A DNA stretch of 64,000 nucleotides from Thermaerobacter marianensis (GTDB lineage Bacteria > Bacillota > Sulfobacillia > DVGY01), in assembly GCA_020724425.1 (NCBI GenBank), contig DYGY01000005.1:1-64000 (forward strand). Reading direction: 5' to 3'. Numbering within the stretch: position 1 is the first letter of the stretch; the number at the start of each line of letters is the position of its first letter. The position numbers were made by a program, and so were the translations under genes. The notes below the pieces were generated by a model that was given only the letters and a program-made list of their open reading frames with translations, searched no databases and was not told the DNA's origin. This document shows positions 11,368 through 19,607 of the stretch, piece by piece.

Positions 11368-12741
11368 TCATTTGTTAACTAAAAGGGAGAGTTGCAGCAG
11401 TTCTCTCTTATTAGAAACATTAAGTTTGCTGTAGATCTTTTTGGTGTGAGTCTTAACCGTATTTTCGCTGATATTTAGCATGTCAGCTATTTGTTTGTTG
11501 GTATACCCCTGGATAAGGAGTTCTGCCACTTCAGTTTCCCGTTTACTTAAGAGTTCTGTTTGGGGTAGTTGTAAAGCTAGAGGGTTCTTTTCTAAAGGAG
11601 TCTCTGATAAGGAAGATATTTTGCTGCCCAGATCCTTTTCAACTACCTGATTCAGTAAGTGCATGAGCATAAGTGATATAAAGATGATACTTACAGAGAA
11701 TACTGCTGATATTAGATAAGCATTATCCATTTTTGCAAGTATTTGAACGCCAATTAGCCCTCCAGCGAAGACTCCAAAAAGGTTTGCCAGAAAGGCATAC
11801 CCGGTAATCTTCAAGGGTCGACCGTAGATAGAAGCGATGAGGCCAAATAGAGTCCAGAGGACCAAATCCATCATTGCCCAGCCTGCCTGAAGGAGTGTAT
11901 CGGTAAGGAAATAGCTATAAAGGTTTTCGGTAAGCAGACCAAAGGAAAGGTATGCCAATCCTAAGAGAGAGGTACCTATGAAGACATGAAACATAAGTGG
12001 TATCTTCTGACCTAAGAAGAACAGTAGCAAGAGGACAGTTAGGTAGGGAAGGATACCATAGTAGATTGAATACTCAGGAAACAGTGTGTTGAATGAGGGT
12101 GCTATGGCATGAAAAGACAGGCCGTCATTGATATTAATTAGAAAAAGAAACAAACAGGTGATAAAGATTAGTTTTGTGGGAAACGGTCTATTCTTTAAGG
12201 GTATTTCTATAGGTTGGGTTATAGTGGTTCTTGATGAAGCTAATAGGCTTGCTCCTAGGATCAGTTCTAATAGTATCAAAATGCTAGAGGTAGGTAACCA
12301 GGTAAGAATATTCAGGATGTAATAGATAATATTTCCTGTAAAGATGACTAGGGCCATCACTTGGAGTTTCTGTTGGATTGGGATTTCCATGGTGTAGAAG
12401 TAGCTCCACGAGATTATATAGAGAACACTAGCGATTCCCATTAGTGCTAGAACAGGATACCAGTATGTTGGTGGAATTAGAAAAAGGATTAGTGTACCAA
12501 TCATAGAGACGATTAGGCTCCAGGTCATTAAGGACTTGGAGTATTTTTCTTCTATTGAAAAAAAAGAGTACCCTATTAGGAATAGGACAGGTATAGCAGT
12601 ATAGGTTAGGCTATACGAAGCAATGGCAAGGTCATAGGGGGCCAGTAGTTGTTCTAGAAGGGGCCCGTTATAGGGAAAGGAGAGAAGCCAACCTAAGAAT
12701 AGACCATAGGATAAGATTATTGGCACATAGCGTTTTTGCAT
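11368..12741 (-). CDS. Membrane-bound LuxR-family transcriptional regulator (MFS-like multi-TM N-terminus + LuxR HTH)
   Basis: About 10-12 hydrophobic helices followed by LSKRETEVAELLIQGYTNKQIADMLNISENTVKTHTKKIYSKLNVSNKRELLQL. Confidence 0.9.
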   Translation of the reverse strand: MQKRYVPIILSYGLFLGWLLSFPYNGPLLEQLLAPYDLAIASYSLTYTAIPVLFLIGYSFFSIEEKYSKSLMTWSLIVSMIGTLILFLIPPTYWYPVLALMGIASVLYIISWSYFYTMEIPIQQKLQVMALVIFTGNIIYYILNILTWLPTSSILILLELILGASLLASSRTTITQPIEIPLKNRPFPTKLIFITCLFLFLININDGLSFHAIAPSFNTLFPEYSIYYGILPYLTVLLLLFFLGQKIPLMFHVFIGTSLLGLAYLSFGLLTENLYSYFLTDTLLQAGWAMMDLVLWTLFGLIASIYGRPLKITGYAFLANLFGVFAGGLIGVQILAKMDNAYLISAVFSVSIIFISLMLMHLLNQVVEKDLGSKISSLSETPLEKNPLALQLPQTELLSKRETEVAELLIQGYTNKQIADMLNISENTVKTHTKKIYSKLNVSNKRELLQLSLLVNK

Positions 12742-12809
12742 GCAATTCTCTCCTACTCTTTATTCTATGGACATAATTTATTGTACAGTATCTTTATCTC
12801 TATAAGCAA

Positions 12810-12829
12810 TGATATTGCATGCAATATCA
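12810..12829. promoter_or_regulatory. Perfect 20-bp palindrome TGATATTGCATGCAATATCA (candidate operator)
   Basis: Sequence equals its own reverse complement; lies in the divergent intergenic region 12742-12937. Confidence 0.6.
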
Positions 12830-12845
12830 CCCCTTAGGGGTGATA
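12825..12845. promoter_or_regulatory. 21-bp palindrome TATCACCCCTTAGGGGTGATA, overlapping the previous one by 5 bp
   Basis: 10-bp perfect arms around one central T; same divergent intergenic region. Confidence 0.6.
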
Positions 12846-12937
12846 CCCGGATTCATGAATGAAAGATAGAATGAATGTGAGAGTGGTGTACATAATAAGC
12901 ATGGGCATTTTGCTTTTAAAGAAAGGGAGGAAAGTTC

Positions 12938-15900
12938 ATGATTCATAAAAGGAAGTTTGTTTCTATAATTCTCGTATTTTTTTTGTTTTTGACTTTGGTT
13001 ACTGTGGTTATGGCTCAGCCGGGTGATCTTGAAGGGCATTGGGCTAAGGAACAGATTAACTCTTGGTCTTCTTCAGGGCTAATATCTGGATATCCTGATG
13101 GGACATTTAGGCCGGAAGGATATATCTCAAGAGCTGAGTTTTTCACTTTGATTAATAGGGTATTTGGCTTGGAGGATAGGGAGATAGTAAATTTTTCTGA
13201 TGTTCCTACGGATGCCTGGTATTATGATGAGATAGCTAAGGCTGTAGCTGCTGGTTATGTTTCTGGTTATCCTGATGGCACAATTAGGCCTCATAATTAC
13301 ATTACCAGACAGGAAGCGGCTGTGGTTGTTGCTAGAGCATTTGCTTTGGAAGGGAGTTCTATAGCAAGCTTTACTGATTCAAAAGCTATTGCTTCCTGGG
13401 CTAGTGATGCAGTGGGTGTTTTATATGAAAAAGATATTCTTAAGGGATATCCTGATGGGAGTTTTGGTCCTAACAATAATATTAAGCGAGCTGAAACAGT
13501 AGCATTGTTAAGCAATGCTGGTGGAAATATTTATACATCTCCAGGCAGTTATACTGAGGATACTAAAGGGAATGTGGTTATTAATACAGGTGGGGTTATC
13601 TTAAAAAATATGACTATCGGTGGTGACCTCTATTTAGCACAGGGTATTGGTGATGGGGATGTAACTCTTGAGGGAGTTACTGTACAAGGGGTGACCTATG
13701 TCTGGGGTGGTGGAGAAGAGTCTATCTATTTTAGGAATTCTAGACTTAGGGATATGGTGATTAATAGGTCTTTGAGTTCTGTTCGAGTTGTAGCAGAGGG
13801 GAATACTCTGATTACTGGTGTTACACGGGTGGACTCGGGTGTAAAGCTTGAGTCAAAGGATACTTCTGAGATAGCTTTCAAGGAACTTGAGATTTCTGAG
13901 AGGATTCCTAGTAGTGCTTCAGTACAACTAGCAGGTCATTTTGGTAATGTGACGCTAAGGAATGCGGCTATGGTTAGCGTTGCTCCAGGATCTCTTGTAA
14001 ATAGGGTTGTTGTAACTGAATCTGCTCAGGGAGCTAGGATTGAATCTAGTGCTCGCCTTCAGGTTGAAGTACAAGCAGAGAATGTTTTTGTAAATAATCA
14101 AAGCTTTTCATCAGGGCAAGAGGTTAGTGTATCTGATGGTGGTTTTACTACAATATCAGCACCTCCTAGACCTAGCGTTACAGTTGTTGAGGTTAGTTCA
14201 GTTGGTGTTGAACCAAGTACCATGACTTTAGATGCTGGTGGAGCAACAGGTACCTTGATTGCTAGTATAGAGCCTGGTAATGCAACAAATAAGGGGATTG
14301 AATGGACTTCAAGTCATCCGGAAGTAGCTACTGTGGTAGATGGGATAGTTACTCCATTATCTGCAGGTACTACTACAATTATGGTGACATCTTTGGCTAA
14401 TGAGAATATTGTTGCTAGTTGTATTGTAACTGTAGATGAGTTTGCTGGAGGAGTTGGAACACTAGAGGATCCTTACAGGGTAGCTTCAGCAGTACAGCTT
14501 AATAGTGTGCGTAACTATTTAGATGCCCATTTTATATTGGTTGAAGATATTAATCTATCCCTCTATTCTACTGGTGAGGGATGGGAACCTATAGGGACAT
14601 CATATGAAAATGCATTTATGGGTACTTTTGATGGTAATGGGTACTCAATTGAGAACTTAACTATTGACAGTGTTAACTATGATAGCTTTGGTCTTTTTGG
14701 TTATGTTAGAGGAGCAAGTATTGAGAATGTAACTCTTTTGGATGTGGATATAACCGGGAGAACCTCTGACTCTTTGAGAAGAGAAGAAACTCGGATAGGT
14801 TCGTTAGTTGGCTATAACAGAGAAGGAACTGTGAAGAACAGTTCGGCTACCGGGGTTGTCCGGGGAGAAAGAAACTCACAGGTAGGTGGGTTAGTAGGGT
14901 ATAACTCTGCTGGTCTAATTGAGGCTTCTTTTGCAGATGTGCTGGTTATTAGTGAGGGTCAGGCTGGGGGTCTAATTGGTAATAACTCTTCAAGTGCTTT
15001 GAGTATACACAATAGCTATGCTACTGGTGATGTCGAAGGCTACCAGCATGTTGGTGGTTTGGTTGGTCGTAATTCTGGGGAGATTCAGTCTAGTTATGCT
15101 ACAGGGCAGGTTAGAGGATATACACAAGTTGGTGGTTTAGTTGGAGGAACTGACCATAGAAATATTAGATCTTCCTATGCTACTGGAAATGTAGTTGGAA
15201 ATGAGTATGTGGGCGGTCTTATTGGTTATAACAATAGCTCGAAGATATATGATAGCTATGCTAGCGGTAGTGTAACGGGTGGCTATGTTGTGGGTGGCTT
15301 GATTGGCTATAACTATAGCTGGAACACCTATATTGAGAACTGTTATGCTGTTGGTGCAGTTTTAGGTGAAGGTAGTCATGTGGGTGGATTGCTTGGGATG
15401 AACTATAAAGATGAGGCTCTGATTGTATCTAGTTATTATGACTTAGCGACAACCGGGCAGACTGATCTTTCTAAGGGTGAAAGAAGGACTTCTGATCAGA
15501 TGGTTGATATAGATAATTTCAATGGCTGGGATTTTGAGAACACTTGGCAGATTGCTGGTGGGTATCCCTATCTAAAATGGCAGGCTAATAATATTCCTGG
15601 TTTGCCAGAGTTGGATCCTAATAAGTATGTTAGTTTTGTGGCAGGTACCGGTGGCAGTGTTTCTAAGAGTAGTATAAGTGCTCTCTGGGGAACTACCCAT
15701 ACTATAACAGCTACTCCTGCTGAGGGATATCTATTCTTTAACTGGACGCAGAATGGTAGGGAGCTCTCTAGAGATGAAGCTTATACCTTTATGGTAACTG
15801 GTGATACAGAGATTAAGGCAAACTTTATGGAGAATCCATTTGCAGGTGGTTCTGGTACAGTACTTGATCCTTATCTAGTTGATACGGCTCTAGCTCTTGA

Positions 15901-16852
15901 TGCTGTTAGATACTATCTTGATAAGCATTTTAGACAGGTTGAGGATATTGATTTGATTGGGTATGATTGGGAACCAATTGGTGAAAAACCTGCCACATGG
16001 GAAGATAACTATAGGGCTTTTTCGGGTCAGTATGATGGTAATGGTAGGGTCATAACAAACCTTTCTATCAACAGACCTGATGAGGATTATGTGGGTCTCT
16101 TCTCTCAGGTTGATAGTACCGGGCAGTTAATGAATGTCTCTCTTAGAGATGTGTCTGTTCTGGGACATGATTATGTGGGATCATTGGCTGGAAGGAATCT
16201 GGGCAGTATTCTAGGTTCAAGTGCTATCGGTAGTGTAGAGGGTTATAGCTATGTAGGAGGACTTGTTGGTTCACAGAATGTTTTTGGGTTTGATCAGGGA
16301 GTAATTGAAGCGAGTTACACTTCTGGTTCTGTGTCTGGGTATAGTATTGTTGGAGGACTCTTAGGCTATAATTGGCAGGGTGGTAAGGTCTTAAAGAGTT
16401 TTTCTTCTGCTAATGTTGTTGGTGATTATTATGTCGGTGGGTTAGTTGGTCAGAGTTCCGCTAATAGTCCATACATGAATATAATTGAGAATTCTTATGC
16501 TACTGGCTCTGTGACAGGCAACAGAACGGTTGGTGGCCTTGTTGGATATCTTGGTAGGAGCTATGTCATTAATTCTTATGCTGTTGGAACGGTGTCGGGT
16601 GATACTGGTGAGCTAGGTGGATTAATAGGGTATACCTTTATAGTCGAAATAACTAACTCATATTATGATGTGGAGACTACCACTAAAGATAATTCTAAAG
16701 GTAGTGCTAGGACTACTCAAGAGATGATGCAGCAGTGGACCTTTAATAGCTGGGATTTTGAAAGCATATGGGAGATAGAGGAGGGTCTGTCCTATCCATA
16801 TTTAAGATGGCAGGAAGGCCTAAATATTCCCTATTCTAATCAGATGGATTAA
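12938..16852 (+). CDS. S-layer-homology (SLH) surface protein with Big2-like and GLUG-repeat regions
   Basis: Signal peptide; three SLH domains (WAKEQI..GYPDGTFRP; AWYYDEI..GYPDGTIRP; WASDAV..GYPDGSFGP); Ig-like segment; many SYATGxVxGxxxVGGLVGxN repeats; InlB B-repeat-like FVAGTGGSVS...IKANFM. Confidence 0.93.
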   Translation: MIHKRKFVSIILVFFLFLTLVTVVMAQPGDLEGHWAKEQINSWSSSGLISGYPDGTFRPEGYISRAEFFTLINRVFGLEDREIVNFSDVPTDAWYYDEIAKAVAAGYVSGYPDGTIRPHNYITRQEAAVVVARAFALEGSSIASFTDSKAIASWASDAVGVLYEKDILKGYPDGSFGPNNNIKRAETVALLSNAGGNIYTSPGSYTEDTKGNVVINTGGVILKNMTIGGDLYLAQGIGDGDVTLEGVTVQGVTYVWGGGEESIYFRNSRLRDMVINRSLSSVRVVAEGNTLITGVTRVDSGVKLESKDTSEIAFKELEISERIPSSASVQLAGHFGNVTLRNAAMVSVAPGSLVNRVVVTESAQGARIESSARLQVEVQAENVFVNNQSFSSGQEVSVSDGGFTTISAPPRPSVTVVEVSSVGVEPSTMTLDAGGATGTLIASIEPGNATNKGIEWTSSHPEVATVVDGIVTPLSAGTTTIMVTSLANENIVASCIVTVDEFAGGVGTLEDPYRVASAVQLNSVRNYLDAHFILVEDINLSLYSTGEGWEPIGTSYENAFMGTFDGNGYSIENLTIDSVNYDSFGLFGYVRGASIENVTLLDVDITGRTSDSLRREETRIGSLVGYNREGTVKNSSATGVVRGERNSQVGGLVGYNSAGLIEASFADVLVISEGQAGGLIGNNSSSALSIHNSYATGDVEGYQHVGGLVGRNSGEIQSSYATGQVRGYTQVGGLVGGTDHRNIRSSYATGNVVGNEYVGGLIGYNNSSKIYDSYASGSVTGGYVVGGLIGYNYSWNTYIENCYAVGAVLGEGSHVGGLLGMNYKDEALIVSSYYDLATTGQTDLSKGERRTSDQMVDIDNFNGWDFENTWQIAGGYPYLKWQANNIPGLPELDPNKYVSFVAGTGGSVSKSSISALWGTTHTITATPAEGYLFFNWTQNGRELSRDEAYTFMVTGDTEIKANFMENPFAGGSGTVLDPYLVDTALALDAVRYYLDKHFRQVEDIDLIGYDWEPIGEKPATWEDNYRAFSGQYDGNGRVITNLSINRPDEDYVGLFSQVDSTGQLMNVSLRDVSVLGHDYVGSLAGRNLGSILGSSAIGSVEGYSYVGGLVGSQNVFGFDQGVIEASYTSGSVSGYSIVGGLLGYNWQGGKVLKSFSSANVVGDYYVGGLVGQSSANSPYMNIIENSYATGSVTGNRTVGGLVGYLGRSYVINSYAVGTVSGDTGELGGLIGYTFIVEITNSYYDVETTTKDNSKGSARTTQEMMQQWTFNSWDFESIWEIEEGLSYPYLRWQEGLNIPYSNQMD
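14441..15600 (+). repeat. GLUG module, first copy of an internal duplication
   Basis: Starts FAGGVGTLEDPYRV..., ends WDFENTWQIAGGYPYLKWQ; parallel to 15839-16834. Confidence 0.75.
15839..16834 (+). repeat. GLUG module, second copy of an internal duplication
   Basis: Starts FAGGSGTVLDPYLV..., ends WDFESIWEIEEGLSYPYLRWQ. Confidence 0.75.
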
Positions 16853-16875: not shown

Positions 16876-16915
16876 ATTACTGCAGTTACCCAGGCAGGGG
16901 GGTAACTGCAGTAAT
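16876..16915. other. Long perfect hairpin downstream of the SLH gene
   Basis: ATTACTGCAGTTACCC - 8-nt loop - GGGTAACTGCAGTAAT; 16-bp perfect stem, no T-run. Confidence 0.7.
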
Positions 16916-16992: not shown

Positions 16993-17023
16993 AGATTCCT
17001 GGCACTTTTTGTGCCAGGAATCT
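16993..17023. terminator. Perfect 13-bp hairpin next to the stop codon of the 17024-18493 gene
   Basis: AGATTCCTGGCAC-TTTTT-GTGCCAGGAATCT; no good T-run on either strand, so termination is uncertain. Confidence 0.5.
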
Positions 17024-18493
17024 CTATCTAAGTTCCTTAATTAGGCTTCTGATAAGAGATAAGCTTTTTTTCTCCCCTGTTGAAATTGTTTGTAGGTAGT
17101 CCCAGAAGGCTGCTGTCATGTTGCTTTCATTGATGGCAAAAATTATGGAGGGAATAGAGGTTTTGGCAGCAATTATCCCGATATCCTCCTTTATGTATAA
17201 CATATAGTTTGTGGCTTCTTGATTTTCAATATATATGTGGTAGTTCTCATAGGTTTCTGTCAGATATAGTACGTTTTCTAAGTGCTCTCTGAATTGCTCT
17301 TTAGTATAGTAGATGGGGTCTGTATTTAGTATATCTGAGAAGTTTATTAATACATTACCACTTTGTATTTCATCAACCTCTGGTAAGGTGATAAACTCGA
17401 TGTGTTGCTGATTTTTCAGTCTGTTTTTAAAATTTCTAATGCGAGATTCTTGAAATGCCAAGAGGTTTTCTCTATCTTTTGTATCAGGCAGAATTCTTTC
17501 TGCAACGGATAGGGGTATAGTGATATTGGAAAGATTGTTGCTTCTAAGAATACTTGTGCCGGCTTCGTTTTCAAATTCAATGAGGGTTGTAAGCCAGGCA
17601 TCTCTGGTATTTGGGGTGAAAATCTGCATCAGAGGACGACAGAGAGAAAGAAAGCTCCGAAATTCTTCTGTCATTGCCTTAAGTATTTGCTTATCAGTGT
17701 ATAGGAAGTTGACAGTGTTTGTAGGGTTATTGCCTACGGAGTTTGATGTCAGGGCAACAGTATTTGGAGCTATGAACAGGGTACGTCTAAATACCCCATC
17801 CCGGACTTTGGGGTAGTGGTATGGTTCAATAGCTCCGGTCATATAGATAGGGAGCCATTCTCTAATTGCTGAAAGCATTTGGTCAAGGTTACGATTGACA
17901 GTGTGAATTATCTTAATCCTATTACCTTTCATAATGACCTGGGCTAGCAGAGTTGACCATTTTTGAGTGAAGTTAGGATCGCCTGTTAGCCACTCCAAGT
18001 CTTCATCGCTGTATAGGAGCAGAGTTTGGGATTGGTCTGAACTCAATGTTAGTAGCAGGAAGTTAGTAACGGCATCTCTTTTCCCTTGAGTTCCGTAGAA
18101 TACGTTCTGAGATAGATCTGCTTCTCCAAGTTCAATCTCAACTGTTGGCCTCCTAAAGTGGAAGTGGGTAACTTGGTTGAGAAAGTCTTGAATTGTGTTC
18201 TCTGACTCTTGTTCCTGTAACCATTTGTACAGGAGTTCTGACAATTCTTCTTCAGTTTGTTTCTCTTGAAGGTTTAGGGTTTTGTAGATAGTTTCTTTTT
18301 GATAGGTTGCTTGACTATTTCTTGAGAAGTATATGGCCATTGCTTTGAGATAGTTCTCTTTTCTTGAGGGTTTTCTCTTTCCGTGCCTTAGACGGCTGAC
18401 AAAGGAAGGGTCAAGGGAACAGCTTTTTGCTAATGCACTGTTCGATGTGTTGGTTATCTTCATAAGGAATTCTAACTTTTCATTGAATCTCAT
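17024..18493 (-). CDS. XRE-type HTH protein with large uncharacterised C-terminal region
   Basis: N-terminal HTH MRFNEKLEFLMKITNTSNSALAKSCSLDPSFVSRLRHGKRKPSRKENYLKAMAIYF; remaining ~400 aa not assigned to a known domain. Confidence 0.7.
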   Translation of the reverse strand: MRFNEKLEFLMKITNTSNSALAKSCSLDPSFVSRLRHGKRKPSRKENYLKAMAIYFSRNSQATYQKETIYKTLNLQEKQTEEELSELLYKWLQEQESENTIQDFLNQVTHFHFRRPTVEIELGEADLSQNVFYGTQGKRDAVTNFLLLTLSSDQSQTLLLYSDEDLEWLTGDPNFTQKWSTLLAQVIMKGNRIKIIHTVNRNLDQMLSAIREWLPIYMTGAIEPYHYPKVRDGVFRRTLFIAPNTVALTSNSVGNNPTNTVNFLYTDKQILKAMTEEFRSFLSLCRPLMQIFTPNTRDAWLTTLIEFENEAGTSILRSNNLSNITIPLSVAERILPDTKDRENLLAFQESRIRNFKNRLKNQQHIEFITLPEVDEIQSGNVLINFSDILNTDPIYYTKEQFREHLENVLYLTETYENYHIYIENQEATNYMLYIKEDIGIIAAKTSIPSIIFAINESNMTAAFWDYLQTISTGEKKSLSLIRSLIKELR

Positions 18494-18648
18494 AGTTTTC
18501 CTCTCCTTTAGGGAAAGTATATTACGGAGTTAGATGTTTTGACAATGCAACAGGCATGATTCATGTCATTATTTTGGCAGTGCCATGTTAGGAGAAGTGT
18601 TTTATCTGTGGTTGGCACTTGGTATAGTGTAGTTAGAGGTGGTTTGAT

Positions 18649-18945
18649 ATGGCATACAATTTCAGGCTGAGATTAGGTTTTTTTAGAACAGAGAGATACA
18701 GTTTAGAGGTTTTTCTAAAACAGTTAGTTCTCATACCTGCTGCCAATGGTGATATGATTGTTCTAGGTGACAAGGATATTGAGAGCATTATTTTCTTTAA
18801 GCGAAAGTTGGAGACGATGGAGTTTGAGATTAATGCTGTTGGTGGGTTATATATGGGCATTCTTGAAGAAGCTGTTGATATATCTGAGTTAATGGGGCTT
18901 TTGAAAGAACAGTTTGGCAATAGGGTGCTTTTAGATTATCGCTAG
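18649..18945 (+). CDS. Conserved hypothetical protein (98 aa)
   Basis: Intact ORF between the XRE gene and a hairpin/T-run terminator. Confidence 0.55.
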   Translation: MAYNFRLRLGFFRTERYSLEVFLKQLVLIPAANGDMIVLGDKDIESIIFFKRKLETMEFEINAVGGLYMGILEEAVDISELMGLLKEQFGNRVLLDYR

Positions 18946-19124: not shown

Positions 19125-19607
19125 ATGTTTATCTGCAGGTATTCTTGTTCTGCTCTTTTGGAAGGACAGGACCTTGAAGCTGCTCTCAGAGATACTATTA
19201 AAGAATATCAAAACCATGAGGAATGTAGTGAGAGGCTAACATTGGCTTTAGAGTTAGCTCTGAGCGCTTCTGATAACGATATATCAAGACTTGGAGAGGG
19301 GATAGGTGAAGAAGTTTTGGCCATATCGGTATACTGTGCCCTTAAACACAGGGATGATTTCAAGAAAGCCTTAATCGCTGCAGTAAATCATGATGGTGAT
19401 AGTGATAGTAGGGGTGCTATCACGGGAAATGTTTTGGGAGTATATCTGGGTATACAAATGATTCCTGAAGACTGGGATAATGGGGTAGAGATGAGGGAAG
19501 TACTTACACAGATAGCTGATGATCTACATGCTGCTAACAGAGGTAAGGATGATTGGCAGAGAGATACAGGGATTAGTAGGGATTTTAAGGTGGTGGAGAA
19601 GCTATAA
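19125..19607 (+). pseudogene. ADP-ribosylglycohydrolase (DraG-like) C-terminal remnant
   Basis: KKALIAAVNHDGDSDSRGAITGNVLGVYLG is the C-terminal metal-site motif of ADP-ribosylglycohydrolases. N-terminal half absent; apparent frameshift near 19115-19150 (PSGCLSAGILVLLF in another frame). Confidence 0.75.

Follow-up and report, generated by a model that had tools for sequence, protein, structure and literature searches.

A palindromic candidate operator between the genes for a membrane LuxR-type regulator and an SLH surface protein in Thermaerobacter marianensis

The lux box of canonical LuxR is a palindrome centred near -42.5 that overlaps the -35 region, and activation from it is of the class-II type. 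Regulators with 10-12 transmembrane segments in Eggerthella lenta and other Coriobacteriia (DadR, HcdR, CadR) combine an N-terminal multi-transmembrane part with a C-terminal LuxR helix-turn-helix (HTH), and those of E. lenta control an individual neighboring gene, as activators, with metabolic enzymes as the known targets (PMC9734109). How membrane LuxR regulators work is called unclear there, and the passages searched name no operator for the E. lenta proteins (PMC9734109). For the response regulator NarL of E. coli, a dimer of LuxR/GerE HTHs reads a C-rich/G-rich inverted repeat of the 7-2-7 type, an engineered site being TACCCCTAAAGGGGTA (PMC4549865, PMC9314961), and activation needs no more than one NarL site, placed at -44.5 and 32 bp from the -10 box (PMC9314961). 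Here a candidate operator with its promoter geometry is described for a membrane LuxR of the same N-terminal and C-terminal build as those of E. lenta, predicted to control an individual neighbor as those do, with SLH and other surface genes as the likely targets in place of metabolic enzymes.

The window, a 64-kb stretch of DNA from a 2.08-Mb genome (92% complete, 45 contigs), has a 196-bp gap between the gene for a 457-aa membrane LuxR-type regulator (11368-12741, minus strand), the predicted activator, and that for its predicted target, a 1304-aa surface protein in which domain search finds SLH, GLUG, Big_2 and InlB-B-repeat-like domains (12938-16852, plus strand). In this gap are a 20-bp perfect palindrome, pal1, TGATATTGCATGCAATATCA (12810-12829), and a second one, pal2, TATCACCCCTTAGGGGTGATA (12825-12845), neither assigned to a strand, which overlap by the 5 bp TATCA just as the initial annotation had reported. 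They are the only perfect palindromes in the window with arms of at least 10 and a spacer of at most 1, for which a shuffled control gives 0.3 per 64 kb, and dinucleotide shuffles of the gap have at least one palindrome with arms of at least 9 in 0.4% of cases and at least two in 0.005%. Because they are the sole perfect ones in 64 kb, and two per 196 bp come up in about 5 of 100,000 shuffles, the pair is not due to chance. With up to 3 mismatches allowed, the genome has no other copy of pal2 and one of pal1, with 3 mismatches, at 18645-18664, a probably fortuitous match that overlaps a small ORF at its start. As each is unique in its own genome, origin from a dispersed repeat, a possibility raised in the initial annotation, is ruled out. 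A viral origin was also rejected, exact copies being absent from viral contigs.

Comparison across the class places pal2 among the sites of a predicted operator, ATCACCC-N4/5-GGGTGAT, that is class-wide and goes with membrane-LuxR loci; its core (12826-12844) has the 5-bp spacer CTTAG. When 154 genomes of the class were scanned, 32 of them proved to have ATCAYCC-N4-GGRTGAT, at 54 sites in all, and the reversed control had 1 match; ATCACCC..GGGTGAT with a free spacer gave 75 sites against 5 control matches. Counted by hand, the spacer is 4 bp in 35 of these 75 and 5 bp in 5, pal2 included, and that of pal2 is a real minority variant. About two-thirds of the perfect sites are outside ORFs; the relaxed ATCATCC forms are mostly within them and are probably chance occurrences. 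The relatives compared are all of the same class and most loci are from draft genomes with mechanically called ORFs. In its own genome pal2 is the only match with 0 mismatches to the operator and -10 layout together, and this suggests that the window LuxR and the SLH gene form a private regulator-target pair. Most class sites, with 4 bp between TCACCC and GGGTGA, equal the 7-2-7 of NarL in length, whereas pal2 read as TCACCCC-3-GGGGTGA is 7-3-7, and its half-site TCACCCC differs from the TACCCCT of the engineered NarL site. A further difference is that the predicted reader of pal2 is membrane-embedded whereas NarL is a response regulator.

The window regulator has 11 transmembrane segments by a simple hydropathy count, within the range of 10-12, and a GerE domain (PF00196) at residues 397-450 (E = 3.4e-20; 11392-11553, minus strand, by domain search) whose recognition helix is ISENTVKTH. 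Its single-sequence structure model, with pLDDT 50, is too poor for use, and a scan of the sequence collection for close relatives gave 3 matches only, at the level of the HTH. The ATCACCC-type palindrome is present at several loci of membrane-LuxR homologues. With up to 1 mismatch, and at no more than 400 bp before or 250 bp after the LuxR gene, the operator is near 12 of the 15 non-duplicate membrane-LuxR genes of the K[T/S]H recognition-helix type against 0.17 expected, the other 3 loci being without it, and near just one of 7 of the K[F/Y]H type, that one mismatched (Fisher P = 0.007 between the types; neither the counts nor P take account of relatedness). Upstream of the K[F/Y]H membrane-LuxR genes of L069, L077 and L078, tandem TACCCC repeats replace the ATCACCC operator; the LuxR neighbor in L069 is also an SLH gene. 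The operator is in addition found beside other LuxR-HTH genes, two large ones for proteins of ~1540 aa and one for a response regulator, and so its code may be common to several LuxR-type proteins. In L162 (4408-9021, minus strand) and L163 (5043-9665, minus strand) the operator is directly 3′ of the gene for a LuxR-HTH protein of ~1540 aa and is followed 21 bp beyond by a TATATT hexamer; the L162 protein has kinase, AAA, TPR and GAF domains.

The distance from operator to promoter is constrained. Among 40 perfect sites taken in both directions there are 23 matches to TAnnnT 21-23 bp after the site where ~1.2 are expected (P = 3e-22), and among fetched TCAYCC..GGRTGA sites TAnnnT accompanies 27 of 64 with a 4-bp spacer, 6 of 8 with a 5-bp spacer and 1 of 23 with any other, the additional 5-bp-spacer sites keeping the same distance to the -10 box. 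At pal2 the predicted -10 hexamer of the SLH gene, TAGAAT (12867-12872, plus strand), is 22 bp past the palindrome and reads toward the SLH gene, whose ribosome-binding site AGGGAGG (12924-12930, plus strand), read from sequence, is 7 nt before the ATG at 12938. Relative to the start predicted at ~12879, the operator is thereby centred at about -44, with the site centre ~31-32 bp upstream of the -10 box, as is class-II-type spacing, and pal2 would serve the membrane LuxR as an activator site of the class-II type. It resembles the lux box as a palindrome of the -35 region, and differs from that system in sequence and in sensor domain.

Beside these computed features, namely the motif, its recurrence near membrane-LuxR genes, the fixed distance to the -10 box and the surface-related targets, we think it probable that the membrane LuxR of the divergent gene has its operator in pal2, for class-II-type activation of the SLH gene. 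The spacer of pal2, 5 bp where 4 bp prevails, and the 3 K[T/S]H loci that lack the operator weigh against this reading. A dimer of the cytoplasmic HTH would bind the inverted repeat ATCACCC-N5-GGGTGAT within pal2; positioned at about -44 the bound protein would take the place of a -35 element and recruit RNA polymerase to the TAGAAT box; and a signal sensed by the membrane domain would in this way switch on one adjacent gene for a surface-layer protein. Binding by the window's own LuxR, activation as opposed to repression, and the signal are what we infer from sequence. With a fixed geometry, the predicted operator allows direct tests of which DNA is bound by a membrane-tethered LuxR and of how the promoter is reached.

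The presence of the operator beside non-membrane LuxR-HTH genes, together with the five LuxR-HTH matches that the genome has besides the window LuxR, would also fit a LuxR/NarL-type operator read by a soluble LuxR-family protein encoded elsewhere, with the adjacent membrane protein a non-reader or one of several readers. We regard this as unlikely, given that 12 of the 15 K[T/S]H membrane-LuxR loci carry the operator when 0.17 would be expected, and that the sole exact site in the genome adjoins the membrane LuxR gene. Less likely again is that the membrane LuxR is a repressor and that pal2 blocks one or both of the divergent promoters, with autorepression. Operators do occur near the LuxR start at several loci (G035 and f37), but the fixed 21-23 bp to an outward-pointing -10 box is what is expected of an activator that replaces the -35 element, and the characterized 12-transmembrane LuxRs of E. 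lenta are activators (PMC9734109).

The perfect self-complementarity of both palindromes, and the 4-nt spacers elsewhere that could be hairpin loops, might instead be taken to mean that both are structural, forming a cruciform, a hairpin in a transcript or a terminator, and we give this very little credence. A T tract of the terminator kind is absent, pal1 and pal2 are upstream of both predicted start sites, the reversed control would make an equally good hairpin and yet is nearly absent from the genomes of the class, and the -10 box goes with particular spacers only. An Rfam search at the palindromes gave no match, and a riboswitch or other RNA element was accordingly rejected there, as was a terminator, none being detected.

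Pal1, a candidate site for another factor, abuts a weak putative -35 element of the LuxR gene, TTGCTT (12804-12809, minus strand), which is below the promoter-scanner threshold and is separated by an 18-bp spacer from a putative -10 element, TACAAT (12780-12785, minus strand); both were read from sequence. Its core, TTGCATGCAA (12815-12824), has a second copy, likewise without strand, 79 bp away at 12736-12745, spanning the start codon of the LuxR gene (12739-12741). The third short element claimed in the initial annotation at the LuxR start is thus real, with coordinates that were 2-3 bp off; GCATGCAAT is at 12738-12746. The core has 5 copies in the 2.08-Mb genome, two flanking the putative LuxR promoter and the other three within ORFs, and a single copy was present in the 1.2 Mb of foreign DNA retrieved. 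No counterpart of pal1 was found in relatives, these being of the same class and none closer, and nothing relevant to a binding partner for TTGCATGCAA was among the literature matches listed. Since the core recurs across the putative promoter of the LuxR gene, pal1 is, tentatively, most likely a separate site for a second factor that acts on that gene. The early proposal of the LuxR protein as likely binder is supported, for pal2, by the class-wide comparison. Overlap had also been taken to imply mutually exclusive binding or a cruciform, but by itself it does not demonstrate exclusion; with 15.5 bp between the centres, or about 1.5 helical turns, a dimer on each of two opposite faces of the DNA is as conceivable.

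Genes next to the operator elsewhere in the class include surface-related ones. SLH protein genes are beside sites in G035 and G074 and genes for Cu_amine_oxidN1-domain proteins in G016 and G074; other neighbors encode a CBM_20-bearing protein and three proteins that have lipoprotein-like starts and lack a Pfam match (lipoprotein and signal-peptide assignments are N-termini read by eye), and in G006 and G115 Wzz-like genes, by matches under the Pfam cut-off, follow the sites with a 5-bp spacer. That regulatory sites are present in the divergent promoter, and that a cell-surface gene is under their control, as initially proposed, both agree with this comparison, which suggests that the membrane LuxRs of the class would serve cell-surface genes (SLH, secreted, polysaccharide) and not metabolic enzymes. 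A wider proposal, which we hold to be possible but doubtful, is of a class-wide family of membrane-LuxR activators that would use an ATCACCC-N4/5-GGGTGAT-N21-23-TAnnnT code for surface genes, mostly their own neighbor, with the palindrome of a second factor interlocked at the present locus so as to tie inputs together. The 5-bp-spacer operators of L207 and L208 extend to GCAATCACCC...GGGTGATTGC and have an extra GGGTGA half-site ~10 bp upstream.

Further along the window, two strong hairpins (16876-16915 and 16993-17023) between the SLH gene and a convergent XRE-like gene are probably terminators. The latter gene (17024-18493, minus strand) encodes a 489-aa protein with an N-terminus that is XRE-like by eye, without a Pfam or NCBIfam match and with a homologue, at 28% identity, in 1 of the 60 class relatives searched; as a reader of pal1 by way of the near-match at 18645 it was dropped, that near-match overlapping an ORF start. 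At 19125-19607 (plus strand) an ADP-ribosylglycohydrolase profile of length 287 is matched at its positions 172-287 only, and this looks like a truncated gene.
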